A stretch of 64,000 nucleotides of DNA from Phenylobacterium soli (GTDB lineage: Bacteria > Pseudomonadota > Alphaproteobacteria > Caulobacterales > Caulobacteraceae), in NCBI RefSeq assembly GCF_003254475.1, contig NZ_QFYQ01000001.1:1798001-1862000 (forward strand), given 5' to 3'. A model generated the notes under the pieces. The model saw only the letters and a list, made by a program, of their open reading frames with translations. It did not search any database and had not been told where the DNA came from. Position 1 is the first letter of the stretch. Each line of letters opens with the position of its first letter. Both the position numbers and the translations under genes were made by a program. Shown piece after piece: positions 4,211 to 44,514 of the stretch.

Positions 4211-4359
4211 TCCGCCGCGCGTGTTCGGAAATATGCCGGGCGCGACGCCCTCATAACGAAATCAAGACAATGGGATCGTCGTAGCAGAGTCCTCGCGGGC
4301 GGCGGAAGTCCGAAGGCTCCCCGACTTTTGCAGTCTGCGCCAAAAAGTCCGTCGTGACA

Positions 4360-4374
4360 GAACAAAGAAGGAAC
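4360..4374 (+). promoter_or_regulatory. LexA-type SOS box, GAAC-N7-GAAC
   Basis: The sequence GAACAAAGAAGGAAC is an exact match to the alphaproteobacterial SOS operator GTTC-N7-GTTC read on the opposite strand. It lies 15 bases upstream of the preferred ATG (4390) of the radical SAM gene, where bound LexA would block transcription or early elongation. A match of this kind is expected about once by chance in a window of this size and composition. It is very unlikely to fall by chance in this particular gap in front of two DNA-repair-type genes. The divergent MFS gene starts 150 bases away and could share the control. Confidence 0.65.
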
Positions 4375-4389
4375 GGTAGGGTCGCGGCC

Positions 4390-5619
4390 ATGGCGGTCCT
4401 CGACCTCAAGCGCAAGCTCGCCATCCTCTCCGATGCGGCCAAGTACGATGCGTCCTGCGCCTCCTCCGGAGGCCAAAAGCGCGACAGCCGCGGCGGCAGG
4501 GGCGTGGGCTCCACCGATGGCGGCATGGGCATCTGCCATGCCTATGCGCCCGACGGGCGCTGCATCAGCCTGCTCAAGATCCTGCTGACCAACTTCTGCA
4601 TCTATGACTGCGCCTACTGCGTGAACCGGGTGTCCTCGAACGTGGCGCGGGCGCGGTTCACGGTGCAGGAGGTCGTCGACCTCACCCTCGGCTTTTACAA
4701 GCGCAACTACATCGAGGGGCTGTTCCTCTCGTCGGGGATCATCCGGTCCGGCGACTACACGATGGAGCAGCTGGTGGCGGTGGCGAAGAGCCTTCGCCTC
4801 GACCACGATTTCCGCGGCTACATCCACCTGAAGCTCATCCCCGAGGCGTCGCCCGAGCTGGTCAACGAGGCCGGGCTCTACGCCGATCGGGTGTCGATCA
4901 ATATCGAGCTGCCGAAGGACGACAGCCTGGCCGCCCTGGCGCCGGAGAAGGACCTGCGGGTCATCAAGAAGGCCATGGGCTCGGTGCGCCTGGCGGCCGA
5001 GGCGGCCAAGGAACCGGCGCGCACGGCCCCACCGCCGCGCTTCGCGCCGGCCGGCCAGTCCACCCAGATGATCGTCGGCGCGGACGGGGCTTCGGACGGC
5101 GAGATCCTCAAGCGCAGCGAGACCCTCTACGGCGCCTACAGCCTGCGGCGGGTCTATTATTCGGCCTTCTCGCCGATCCCGGATTCCACCGCCCGCCTGC
5201 CGCTCGCCCGGCCGCCGCTGGTGCGCGAGCACAGGCTCTACCAGGCCGACTGGCTGATGCGCTTCTACGGCTTCGAGCGGGCCGAGATCGTCGGCGAGGG
5301 CGAGGACCTGGCGCTGGACATGGATCCCAAGCTGGCCTGGGCGCTGAAACACCGGGGCGATTTCCCCGTCGATCTCAACACCGCGGACCGCGAGCGGCTG
5401 CTGCGGGTGCCGGGGCTGGGCGTGCGCTCGGTCGACCGGCTGCTGGAGGTCCGCCGGCTGAAGCGGGTGCGGCTGGAGGACGTCAAGCGGCTCTCCCGGG
5501 GCATCGCCAAGCTGAAGCCCTTCATCGTCACCGACGACTGGCGGCCGGGCGCCCTGGCCGACCAGGCGGACCTCGCCGACCGCCTGAAGGCGCCGCCGAG
5601 GCAGATGAGCCTCTTCTGA
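4390..5619 (+). CDS. putative DNA modification/repair radical SAM protein (UDG-linked)
   Basis: This 409-residue radical SAM enzyme belongs to the family that is characteristically encoded beside a DUF4130/uracil-DNA-glycosylase-like protein; its reaction is unknown. The SAM-binding [4Fe-4S] motif is C70-x3-C74-x2-C77 (NFCIYDCAYC). The family signature AAKYDASCASSG starts at residue 16, and a C-terminal helix-hairpin-helix (LLRVPGLGVRSVDRLLE) suggests DNA binding. ATG 4390 is chosen because the family begins close to LDLKRKL, an AGGAACGG/AGGG-type ribosome site precedes it, and the SOS box would otherwise be coding. GTG at 4354 is an in-frame alternative. The TGA overlaps the ATG of the UdgX fusion (TGATG), implying translational coupling. 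Confidence 0.88.
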   Translation: MAVLDLKRKLAILSDAAKYDASCASSGGQKRDSRGGRGVGSTDGGMGICHAYAPDGRCISLLKILLTNFCIYDCAYCVNRVSSNVARARFTVQEVVDLTLGFYKRNYIEGLFLSSGIIRSGDYTMEQLVAVAKSLRLDHDFRGYIHLKLIPEASPELVNEAGLYADRVSINIELPKDDSLAALAPEKDLRVIKKAMGSVRLAAEAAKEPARTAPPPRFAPAGQSTQMIVGADGASDGEILKRSETLYGAYSLRRVYYSAFSPIPDSTARLPLARPPLVREHRLYQADWLMRFYGFERAEIVGEGEDLALDMDPKLAWALKHRGDFPVDLNTADRERLLRVPGLGVRSVDRLLEVRRLKRVRLEDVKRLSRGIAKLKPFIVTDDWRPGALADQADLADRLKAPPRQMSLF

Positions 5620-7043
5620 TGCCGGTGGCGGCCCTTTCGAGCGAGACGGATTTCGACGGCTGGCGCGCCGCCGCCCGATCCCTGCGGTCGCGCCACGCGT
5701 CGCCCGAAGAAGTGATGTGGACCGTGGGCGAGGGCGCTGGCCTGTTCGAAGCCGACGTCCCGGCGGCCGGCGCTCAAGGCTTCAGCGTGCCGCGCGCCTT
5801 CGTGGACCTGGCTCGCGAGGTCATCCTGCATCGCGCGCCCGAGCGGCTCGGCCTGCTCTATCGGCTGCTCTGGCGGCTGGAGGCGCAGCCGCGGCTGCTG
5901 GAGATCTCCACCGACGCCGATGTCGCCCAGGCGCTCGCGTTCCAGCGGCAGGTGCGGACGGCGATCCACAAGATGCACGCCTTCGTCCGCTTCCGCGAAG
6001 TCGAGGCCGCGGACGGCGAGGCGTTCGTGGCCTGGTTCGAGCCGGCGCACCGGGTCACCGAGGCCGCAGCGCCGTTCTTCGTGAAGCGCTTCGCCAACAT
6101 GCGCTGGTCGATCCTGACGCCGGACGCCTGCGCCCACTGGGACCGCTCGACGCTCGCCTTCACGGCCGGGGTCGAAGCGTCCGCCGCGCCGGCCGCCGAC
6201 GCCCTGGAGGACTACTGGCGTACCTACTACGCCTCGATCTTCAACCCGGCGCGGATCAAGGTTGCGGCGATGAAGAAGGAGATGCCGGTCCGCTACTGGC
6301 GGAACCTGCCGGAAGCCGCGCTCATTCCCGAGCTGATCGCCGGCGCCGAGGAGCGCACGAGGAACATGGTCCGCCAGCAGCCCTCAGAGCCGTCCCGCCG
6401 GGCGCAGCGCGCCGCCCGGCGGCTGAGCCGGGACGCGCCCTACGACGGCCAGGCGCCGACGACGCTCGAGGAGGTCGCCGCCGGGATCGAGGCCTGCCGC
6501 CGCTGCGAGCTGTGGCGCGACGCCACCCAGGGCGTCCCCGGCGAGGGACCCGGCAAGGCGCGGCTGATGCTGGTCGGCGAACAGCCCGGCGACCAGGAGG
6601 ACCTGGCGGGCCAGCCGTTCGTCGGACCGGCGGGCGGGGTGCTGGACAAGGCGCTGGCGGCGGCGGGCGTGCCGCGGGCCGAGACCTTCGTCACCAATGC
6701 GGTGAAGCACTTCAAGCACGAGCTGCGCGGCAAGCGGCGGCTGCACAAGACGCCCGGCGCCGGCGAGGTCTCCGCCTGCCGCTGGTGGCTCGACGCCGAG
6801 CGGCGGATCGTGCGCCCGCGGGTGATCGTCGCCCTCGGCGCGACGGCGGCGCTGTCGGTGTTCGGCAAGGCGACGCCCATCGGCAAGTTCCGCCAGCAGG
6901 CGATCCAGCTGCCTGACCAGGTGCAGGGCGTGGTCACCTATCACCCGTCCTACCTGCTGCGCGTGCCGGACGCGGAGGCCAAGGCGAAGGCCTACGCCAT
7001 GTTCGTCGAGGACCTGAAGTTCGCCTGGCATCTCGCCGCCTGA
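5619..7043 (+). CDS. DUF4130 - UdgX-type uracil-DNA-binding protein fusion
   Basis: This is a 474-residue two-domain protein. Residues 1 to about 265 match DUF4130, the partner domain of the upstream radical SAM family (typical stretch IFNPARIKVAAMKKEMPVRY). Residues about 280-474 form a family-4-like uracil-DNA glycosylase fold of the UdgX type, with C293-x2-C296 for the cluster, GEQPGD from G320, KRRLH at 372-376 and YHPSYLLR near the end. UdgX proteins excise uracil and stay covalently attached to the abasic site through the His of the KRRIH loop; that residue is H376 here. The third canonical cluster Cys is replaced by H364 (NAVKHFK), also UdgX-like, and C387 supplies the last ligand. It sits one base inside the radical SAM stop codon, in a probable SOS-controlled operon. 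Confidence 0.88.
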   Translation: MPVAALSSETDFDGWRAAARSLRSRHASPEEVMWTVGEGAGLFEADVPAAGAQGFSVPRAFVDLAREVILHRAPERLGLLYRLLWRLEAQPRLLEISTDADVAQALAFQRQVRTAIHKMHAFVRFREVEAADGEAFVAWFEPAHRVTEAAAPFFVKRFANMRWSILTPDACAHWDRSTLAFTAGVEASAAPAADALEDYWRTYYASIFNPARIKVAAMKKEMPVRYWRNLPEAALIPELIAGAEERTRNMVRQQPSEPSRRAQRAARRLSRDAPYDGQAPTTLEEVAAGIEACRRCELWRDATQGVPGEGPGKARLMLVGEQPGDQEDLAGQPFVGPAGGVLDKALAAAGVPRAETFVTNAVKHFKHELRGKRRLHKTPGAGEVSACRWWLDAERRIVRPRVIVALGATAALSVFGKATPIGKFRQQAIQLPDQVQGVVTYHPSYLLRVPDAEAKAKAYAMFVEDLKFAWHLAA

Positions 7044-42654: not shown

Positions 42655-44514
42655 ATGCTCAGCCGCCGCCACATGCTGCTCGTCGCCGGCGCCAGCGCCG
42701 CGCTGGCCGGCTGCGCCACGGCCAAGCCGCCGGCCGCGCCCGCCGCCCCGCCGCCGCCGGCTCCGCCCCCTGCGCCGCCGCCCACCGCCGAACAGCAGCT
42801 GAACGCCGCCCTCGACGACTTCTTCAACGAGTATCTGCAGAACTTCCCCGAGCTCGCGTCCTCGCTCGGCCTCGACACCGGCGCGCATGCGGACCTGAAG
42901 TCGAAGCTGCACCGGGGCTCGCTCGAGGCGCTGCAGCAGGACAAGGCCCGCACGGCCGCCCAGCTCGCGCGCCTCAACGGCATAGACGCGGCCAAGCTTT
43001 CCGGCATGGCGGCGGTGAACTACGCCTCCGTGCACGAGGACCTGCGGGTCACCGACGCGGCCAACCGGCGCTACAACTACGGCGGCCAGGGCGCGGGCAG
43101 CCCCTATGTGCTGAGCCAGATCACCGGCTCCTACCAGGACGCGCCCGACTTCCTGGCGACCCAGCACACCATCGAGACCGCCGCCGACTGCGAGGCCTAT
43201 GTGGCGCGCCTGTCCGAGCTCGGCCGGCTGATCGACGAGGAGAGCGAGCGCTGCCGCCATGACGCCGGCCTCGGCGTGATCCCGCCGGACTTCGCCCTGA
43301 AGGGCGCGATCACCTCGATGAAGACCATCAACACCGGGCCGGAGAAGAGCGTCCTCGTCACCTCGCTGGTCGACCGCGCCCGCGCCAAGGGGATCGCCGG
43401 GGACTGGCAGGCCAAGGCGTCGCGGGCCTATTCCGAGCGGGTCGGCCCGGCCATGGACCGCCAGGCCGCCCTGCTGGCGGACCTGCTGCCGAAATCGACC
43501 CACGACGCCGGCGTCTGGCGCCTGCCCGACGGCGAGGCCTACTATGCCGCGGCCCTCGCGAGCCAGACCACCACCACCATGACCCCCGCCGAGGTGCACC
43601 AGCTCGGCCTCGAGGTCGGCAAGGAGCTCTCCGCCCGGGCCGACGTGCTGTTCAAGAAGATCGGCATGACCAAGGGCACGGTCGGCGAGCGCTACAAGGC
43701 GCTCTTCAAGTCGAAGAAGTACATCTACCCCAACACCGACGCCGGGAAGGCCAAGCTGGTCGCTGACCTCAACAAGGTCGTCCAGGACATGCAGGCCCGC
43801 CTGCCGCAGTACTTCGGCGCCCTGCCCAAGGCGCCGCTGGAGATCCGCCGGATTCCGAAGGAGACCGAGCAGGGAGCCTCGACCCACTACAACTCGGGCA
43901 GCCTCGATGGCACGCGGCCGGGCATCTACTGGCTGAACCTGCGCGACACCGCCGAGGCGCCCTACTGGGACCTGATCACCACCACCTACCACGAGGGCAT
44001 CCCGGGCCATCACCTGCAGCTCACCCTGGCGCTGCAGGCCGACCTGCCGATGCTGCGGCGGGTGTCGGGCTTCGGGGCCTACCAGGAGGGCTGGGCGCTC
44101 TACGCCGAGCAACTCGCGCAGGAGATGGGCGTCTATGCCGACGATCCGGCCGGCGAGCTCGGCTACATCCACGACGCCCTGCTGCGCTCGGGGCGGCTGG
44201 TCACCGACACCGGCATCCACGCCATGCGCTGGAGCCGCGAGAAGGCGGCGCAGACCCTGTCCTCCATCGAGGGGGATCCGATCACCCTCGCCAACCAGGA
44301 GATCGAGCGCTACGCGGTCTGGCCGGGTCAGGCCTGCAGCTACATGGTCGGCAAGGTCACCATCCTGCGCCTGCGGGACAAGGCGAGGACCGCGCTGGGG
44401 CCCGCCTTCGACATCCGCAAGTTCCACGACGCGGTGCTGCTCGCCGGCGCCATGCCGCTGACCGTCCTGGAGACGGCCGTGGACAACTACATCGCATCGG
44501 CGAGGTCCGCCTGA
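42655..44514 (+). CDS. DUF885 family metallopeptidase-like lipoprotein
   Basis: This 619-residue protein has an N-terminus MLSRRHMLLVAGASAALAGC that combines a twin-arginine motif and a lipobox with modified Cys20. A Pro/Ala-rich spacer (25-45) precedes the catalytic-like domain. The hallmark motif HEGIPGHHLQ lies near residue 450, a zinc-type motif of DUF885 proteins, with further family strings GVWRLPDGEAYYAAAL and TRPGIYWLNLRDTAEAP. Peptidase action is assumed from the fold, not proven. GGGGAGA precedes the ATG. The 211-base gap upstream shows nothing further. Confidence 0.88.
   Translation: MLSRRHMLLVAGASAALAGCATAKPPAAPAAPPPPAPPPAPPPTAEQQLNAALDDFFNEYLQNFPELASSLGLDTGAHADLKSKLHRGSLEALQQDKARTAAQLARLNGIDAAKLSGMAAVNYASVHEDLRVTDAANRRYNYGGQGAGSPYVLSQITGSYQDAPDFLATQHTIETAADCEAYVARLSELGRLIDEESERCRHDAGLGVIPPDFALKGAITSMKTINTGPEKSVLVTSLVDRARAKGIAGDWQAKASRAYSERVGPAMDRQAALLADLLPKSTHDAGVWRLPDGEAYYAAALASQTTTTMTPAEVHQLGLEVGKELSARADVLFKKIGMTKGTVGERYKALFKSKKYIYPNTDAGKAKLVADLNKVVQDMQARLPQYFGALPKAPLEIRRIPKETEQGASTHYNSGSLDGTRPGIYWLNLRDTAEAPYWDLITTTYHEGIPGHHLQLTLALQADLPMLRRVSGFGAYQEGWALYAEQLAQEMGVYADDPAGELGYIHDALLRSGRLVTDTGIHAMRWSREKAAQTLSSIEGDPITLANQEIERYAVWPGQACSYMVGKVTILRLRDKARTALGPAFDIRKFHDAVLLAGAMPLTVLETAVDNYIASARSA

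Follow-up and report, generated by a model that had tools for sequence, protein, structure and literature searches.

The closest described counterparts of the locus analysed here are the COG1573-COG4277 systems. In its account of them, PMC8565304 cites SOS regulation in Verrucomicrobia (Erill 2016) and in Alphaproteobacteria (da Rocha 2008), adds the Bacteroidetes to the lineages in which these systems are SOS-regulated, and suggests that they act against the misincorporation of ribonucleotides by SOS polymerases. In UdgX, the histidine of the KRRIH motif bonds to the abasic sugar, according to PMC10359453.

We analysed a 64-kb window (the whole stretch of DNA under study) of the Phenylobacterium soli genome, in which a gene for a radical SAM protein is followed by one for a protein with a UdgX-type domain, and in which the initial annotation had proposed a LexA box in front of this operon. 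Judged from sequence comparison, this GAAC-N7-GAAC (4360-4374) very probably functions as an operator for LexA.

Sequence and conservation of the candidate operator

The candidate operator, GAACAAAGAAGGAAC, occupies positions 4360..4374 of the + strand and reads GTTC-N7-GTTC on the other strand. An exact GAAC-N7-GAAC had been annotated here, 15 bases before the preferred start, and the + strand bears this out, with 15 intervening bases (4375-4389) between the operator and the ATG at 4390. When both strands of the window were scanned, two exact matches were found against 0.88 expected from dinucleotide shuffles, in agreement with the original estimate of about one chance match per 64 kb. The second match, at 42790-42804, lies within a predicted gene and has a lower matrix score, and it was taken as a chance occurrence. 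For the 185-base gap in front of the operon, 33 of 5000 dinucleotide shuffles (0.66%) contained the box on either strand; the chance level is therefore low, as had been claimed, but about double the figure of less than 0.3% originally given. A matrix trained on the boxes of 11 repair genes, which were selected by eye within this genome, ranked 4360-4374 first in the whole window with 17.6 bits, ahead of an inexact match at 15.3, and the score of the candidate falls inside the leave-one-out range of the 11 training sites (11.3 to 20.6).

Orthologs of the radical SAM gene were collected as the best 80 of 590 matches by similarity, which is not a random sample, and each was scanned from 250 bases upstream to 30 bases into the gene (one window spanned only 183 bases). 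The exact box was present in 79 of the 80 loci, against a mean of 0.7 and a largest value of 3 in 50 rounds of dinucleotide shuffling; as a control, 3535 further windows of 280 bases were taken from these loci, and 25 contained it. The sole miss was L126, titled Hydrocarboniphaga, a gammaproteobacterium, in which neither the alphaproteobacterial box nor CTGT-N8-ACAG was found with up to one mismatch allowed. The two best matches among the 80 loci, at 82% identity, were titled Phenylobacterium.

Two further samples, which may share some species with the 80 loci, gave the same picture. The radical SAM gene was found in 16 of 40 genomes, namely the source genome, 12 of 23 of the same genus and 3 of 16 of the same order, and the exact box preceded it in 11/11 examinable same-genus relatives (a count that omits L172, where a contig end cuts the gene) and in 3/3 same-order genomes. 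Across the phylum, 199 genomes were sampled evenly, and 38 of them carried a match over the family cut-off (7 of 45 matches fell under it and were dropped): the source genome, which was itself left out of the counts, 26 other alphaproteobacteria and 11 non-alphaproteobacteria. All 26 further alphaproteobacteria had the exact alphaproteobacterial box, and for the relatives and these genomes combined the box was present in 40/40 against 0.4 expected. Among the 80 loci, the relatives and the further alphaproteobacteria, conservation of both GAAC halves, the test set beforehand in the initial annotation, was exact in every locus but one. An exact GTTC-N7-GTTC direct repeat in the inferred promoter and its retention before orthologs are among the marks of a member of the alphaproteobacterial LexA regulon, and both features were found at this locus. 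A chance match, for which the one occurrence expected per 64 kb and the gap shuffles containing a box could be cited, is refuted by the conservation in orthologs, and we regard its probability as practically negligible.

In one same-genus genome (G010:C1:2323527-2324749) the radical SAM gene was matched in three pieces and contained one in-frame stop, and the box was intact. Two plasmid loci, L260 and L261 (Leisingera and Azospirillum), carried the pair, and the alphaproteobacterial box was present in both records.

Predicted promoter architecture

The operator is surrounded by promoter-like sequence. A -35-like element, GTGACA (4354..4359, + strand), abuts the operator, and a -10-like element, TAGGGT (4377..4382, + strand), follows it, so that the putative 17-base spacer consists of the 15-base operator plus GG. 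Both assignments draw on 23 promoters (window included) aligned on the operator, which were selected for the register of the window; loci of Brevundimonas, a member of the Caulobacteraceae with another register, were omitted. In these Phenylobacterium/Caulobacter-type promoters, the six bases preceding the operator resemble a -35, with T, G, A and C at offsets -6, -4, -3 and -2 in frequencies of 0.83, 0.78, 0.65 and 0.74, respectively; TA stood two bases past the operator in 23/23, and the sixth -10 position was T in 18/23. TAGGGT is a weak -10. Since the ATG at 4390 begins only seven bases after the -10-like element, the operon mRNA is probably leaderless, with its start at or near that codon, and the start preferred in the initial annotation agrees with this geometry. 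GTG 4354, a possible in-frame start further upstream, was rejected, since it coincides in part with the -35-like element and is absent from the aligned relatives; the ortholog searches, which used the protein from ATG 4390 as residue 1, do not bear on that choice.

A second register was seen in 40 loci of the set of 80, Brevundimonas among them, where the box lies at -16 to -18, about 12 bases nearer the gene, and a TA occurs in the operator spacer in 40/40. If this spacer TA is the -10, the operator would be shifted by about one helical turn and would still lie over the promoter. In the register of -27 to -30, comprising 22 loci, TA was found two bases past the operator in 16 and in the spacer in 6. 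Another twelve loci could not be assigned to either register, their match having begun at a different distance or within the gene itself; in five the box has the opposite orientation. In four of these five, L118, L124, L125 and L134 (titled Hyphomicrobiales, Bradyrhizobiaceae, Bradyrhizobium and Tardiphaga), the reversed box is located 93-111 bases upstream, which suggests a different promoter there.

The gap that holds the operator is shared with a divergent gene for an MFS transporter (minus strand, 2873 to about 4204) whose start is 155 bases away, and the site could in principle serve that gene instead. The -35/-10-like pair around the box points to the operon, and part of the MFS gene was detected by tblastn (E 1e-10) in only 1 of 94 loci, with more than 1.5 kb of upstream sequence available for 76 of the 80, whereas the box is present in nearly all. 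The box therefore follows the operon and not the transporter, and service to the MFS gene appears extremely improbable.

LexA-type boxes in the genome and in other proteobacteria

Throughout the 4.02-Mb genome, 90 occurrences of the pattern were counted, against 40 when the same pattern was read backwards. One of the 90 was merged with another of identical context, and 70 of the resulting 89 distinct contexts lie outside well-scored predicted genes, as called by a crude gene caller that may misplace starts. Boxes were found near lexA, recA, ssb, uvrA, ruvA, radC and mmcB, as well as near a PA0069-type radical SAM gene, an AlkZ-like gene, a probable imuA and a probable rmuC; ImuA, RmuC and UvrA scored under the NCBIfam cut-offs, the last of these because the stretch searched held only part of the gene. 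The boxes of these 11 genes are the training sites of the matrix described above. A single LexA gene is present, with its own box in front, and the genome thus encodes a LexA protein together with other SOS genes that bear the same box.

Twenty-eight of the 90 boxes, including the one at 4360-4374, begin with GAACAAA. Boxes of this form occur at L039, L041 and L034 of the same genome, near genes that appeared phage- or transposase-like by eye, and several of these boxes follow GTCAA (TTGAC when read on the opposite strand); mobile genes at these places are possibly under LexA control.

Ten of the 28 precede members of a protein family without a name, which has ten copies in this genome, all outside the window (L011:1510-2097, L024, L026, L050, L065, L071:6201-6833, L073, L075, L002 and L242), of about 150-220 residues as called. 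In every copy, an exact box of the LexA type lies 0 to 33 bases ahead of the called start, often abutting the ATG. The family was matched in 9 of 23 same-genus relatives, and no match was obtained in the order genomes outside the genus or, at 1e-6 and with no more than 13 candidates scored in each, in 288 other genomes of the class sample. Thirty of 72 family matches were fetched and L247, with fewer than 60 bases upstream, was dropped; of the remaining 29 members, four of them from the source genome, 23 had a box within 200 bases, that of L233 at -144 being doubtful. Pfam returned no family for two clear and two doubtful members, PHROGs none for two, and searches of plasmids and phages with one member gave no match. 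This is possibly an expanded SOS-controlled family, restricted to the genus in the samples searched.

The GAACAAA subclass, with its concentration before a dispersed family, might be taken as the mark of a regulator other than LexA that recognizes a similar direct-repeat site and binds at 4360-4374. We consider this very unlikely on several counts. The ten-copy family was not found in the 288 class genomes (up to 13 candidates scored in each), in the order genomes or in 13 of 22 same-genus relatives, while the box before the radical SAM gene is kept in all 40 alphaproteobacteria examined; the canonical SOS genes have the same type of box, and those of imuA and radC even share the GAACAAA form; and in non-alphaproteobacteria the radical SAM gene is preceded by the type of LexA box known from other proteobacteria.

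This last point emerged from the 11 non-alphaproteobacteria of the phylum sample. Many gamma- and betaproteobacteria have CTGT-N8-ACAG as their LexA box. The alphaproteobacterial box was found in 0/11 of these genomes, and an exact CTGT-N8-ACAG preceded the radical SAM gene in 8/11 (L195, L198, L204, L206, L208, L209, L210 and L212), against 0.015 expected from dinucleotide shuffles; L213 had it with one mismatch only. Conversely, exact CTGT-N8-ACAG occurred in 0/40 alphaproteobacteria, with one-mismatch copies in 4/40. Two non-alphaproteobacteria had neither box; in G113 no LexA scored over the family cut-off, and G132 (L193) has one that does. The form of the E. coli LexA box in Table 1 of PMC9578287 matches CTGT-N8-ACAG. 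In the eight loci with an exact CTGT-N8-ACAG, the operon appears to be under the LexA box type of its own lineage, and these parallel boxes suggest that the timing of the pair's expression matters. With LexA as the regulator and the radical SAM/UdgX operon as its target, the SOS-operator explanation as a whole, that is, repression by LexA and release upon DNA damage, is one in which we place high confidence.

The gene pair, its predicted role and described systems

The first gene (4390..5619, + strand) encodes a radical SAM protein of 409 aa with a CxxxCxxC motif and a probable C-terminal helix-hairpin-helix. It belongs by family search to TIGR03916 (rSAM_link_UDG; 546 bits, cut-off 343.5), described as a 'putative DNA modification/repair radical SAM protein', which from its pairing we infer to be the COG4277 of the literature. 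Cysteines C70, C74 and C77 were invariant in 40 aligned sequences (the window and 39 of the 80 loci). A sequence search of solved structures gave one weak ComEA-type helix-hairpin-helix match (E 0.093). The structural model had a mean pLDDT of 79.3, with residues 23-60 under 50, and its fold matches included HydE, viperin and lipoyl synthase, with TMq at or below 0.44 among the 50 matches listed; since these are radical SAM enzymes in general, no substrate can be named from them.

The second gene (5619..7043, + strand) encodes a 474-aa protein in which a TIGR03915 domain is fused with a uracil-DNA glycosylase domain of the UdgX type (TIGR03914; 332 bits, cut-off 189.95). Both genes agree with the initial annotation, which had implicated them in DNA modification or repair. 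The ATG of the second gene overlaps the TGA of the first, as it does in 50 of 71 loci with a clear frame, a count that took the start nearest the stop and so favours overlap. The protein carries GEQPG and KRRLH, the motifs that define UdgX, and residues Q322, K372, R374 and H376, the cross-linking histidine among them, were invariant in 26 aligned sequences (the window and 25 of the 71 loci, the 9 of 80 without a clear frame having been left out). GEQPG followed by KxRxH was found in 74 of the 80 loci and not in 6. The fold matches listed for the model were UDG-type structures of the C-terminal domain, with no informative match among them for the N-terminal TIGR03915 domain.

From these features the following mechanism can be proposed. 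LexA would bind both GAAC half-sites, which lie as direct repeats between the -35-like and -10-like elements, and, by occupying the polymerase site, would keep transcription of the operon off. Upon DNA damage, RecA filaments would provoke self-cleavage of LexA and the operator would be freed. A probably leaderless mRNA, with its 5' end at or close to ATG 4390, would then yield both proteins, coupled via the overlapping stop and start codons. The products are most likely a pair for the repair of DNA lesions, in which the UdgX-type protein would excise uracil and bond covalently to the resulting abasic site, with a radical SAM enzyme bearing a DNA-binding hairpin as its partner.

LexA control might be real and the pair nevertheless serve mainly to defend the cell against DNA that is foreign or modified, and not to repair host lesions. 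In keeping with such a role, though weakly and indirectly, 394 plasmid records matched the region, 19 of them over at least 80% of it, and a phage polymerase chain (9qhs) matched the UDG domain of the second protein. The occurrence of the pair across alphaproteobacterial genomes with a strict SOS box argues against it, and we judge this role unlikely. A broader proposal can be put forward tentatively, with low confidence: that the pair constitutes a core pathway of SOS repair in Proteobacteria generally, whose control by LexA was kept or re-acquired through differing operators (GTTC-N7-GTTC in alphaproteobacteria, CTGT-N8-ACAG in others). The adduct of UdgX with DNA might then be processed or released by the radical SAM enzyme, or this enzyme might generate the lesion which is subsequently capped by UdgX. 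What the present analysis contributes is a firm place for two enigmatic enzymes in the predicted alphaproteobacterial DNA-damage response, and an indication of when to seek the substrate of the pair, namely during SOS, alongside translesion synthesis.

Literature searches for UdgX with SOS, LexA or operon, and for TIGR03916, found nothing, and the searches as a whole, none of them aimed at CTGT-N8-ACAG and with many journals outside their reach, returned no paper on the operon in Phenylobacterium. Given this limited reach, no novelty is claimed for the Phenylobacterium operon or for the CTGT-N8-ACAG form. Conservation upheld the reading of the box as a LexA site; the link to the DNA-damage response, which the initial annotation had drawn on condition that the box is real, had already been reported according to PMC8565304, and the finding is therefore correct but not new in kind.

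As far as the description in PMC8565304 goes, the COG1573-COG4277 systems comprise the same two families in one operon with an SOS box; relative to the reports known through that description, the genus here is another one, and promoter geometry and conservation have been described. The UDG domain of the second protein resembles UdgX of Mycobacterium smegmatis (E 6.6e-51 in the sequence comparison, with about 50% identity in the fold search) and shares with it GEQPG and the KRRLH motif with the cross-linking histidine, as treated in PMC10359453; unlike in UdgX of M. smegmatis, this domain has a TIGR03915 domain fused to its N-terminal side, and the gene has a radical SAM gene as its partner. 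The SOS regulon of Caulobacter crescentus has the same GTTC-N7-GTTC operator (PMC9578287, Table 1; PMC4211646) and repair genes with boxes; the genome studied here also has boxes before a ten-copy family found, in the samples searched, within its genus only.
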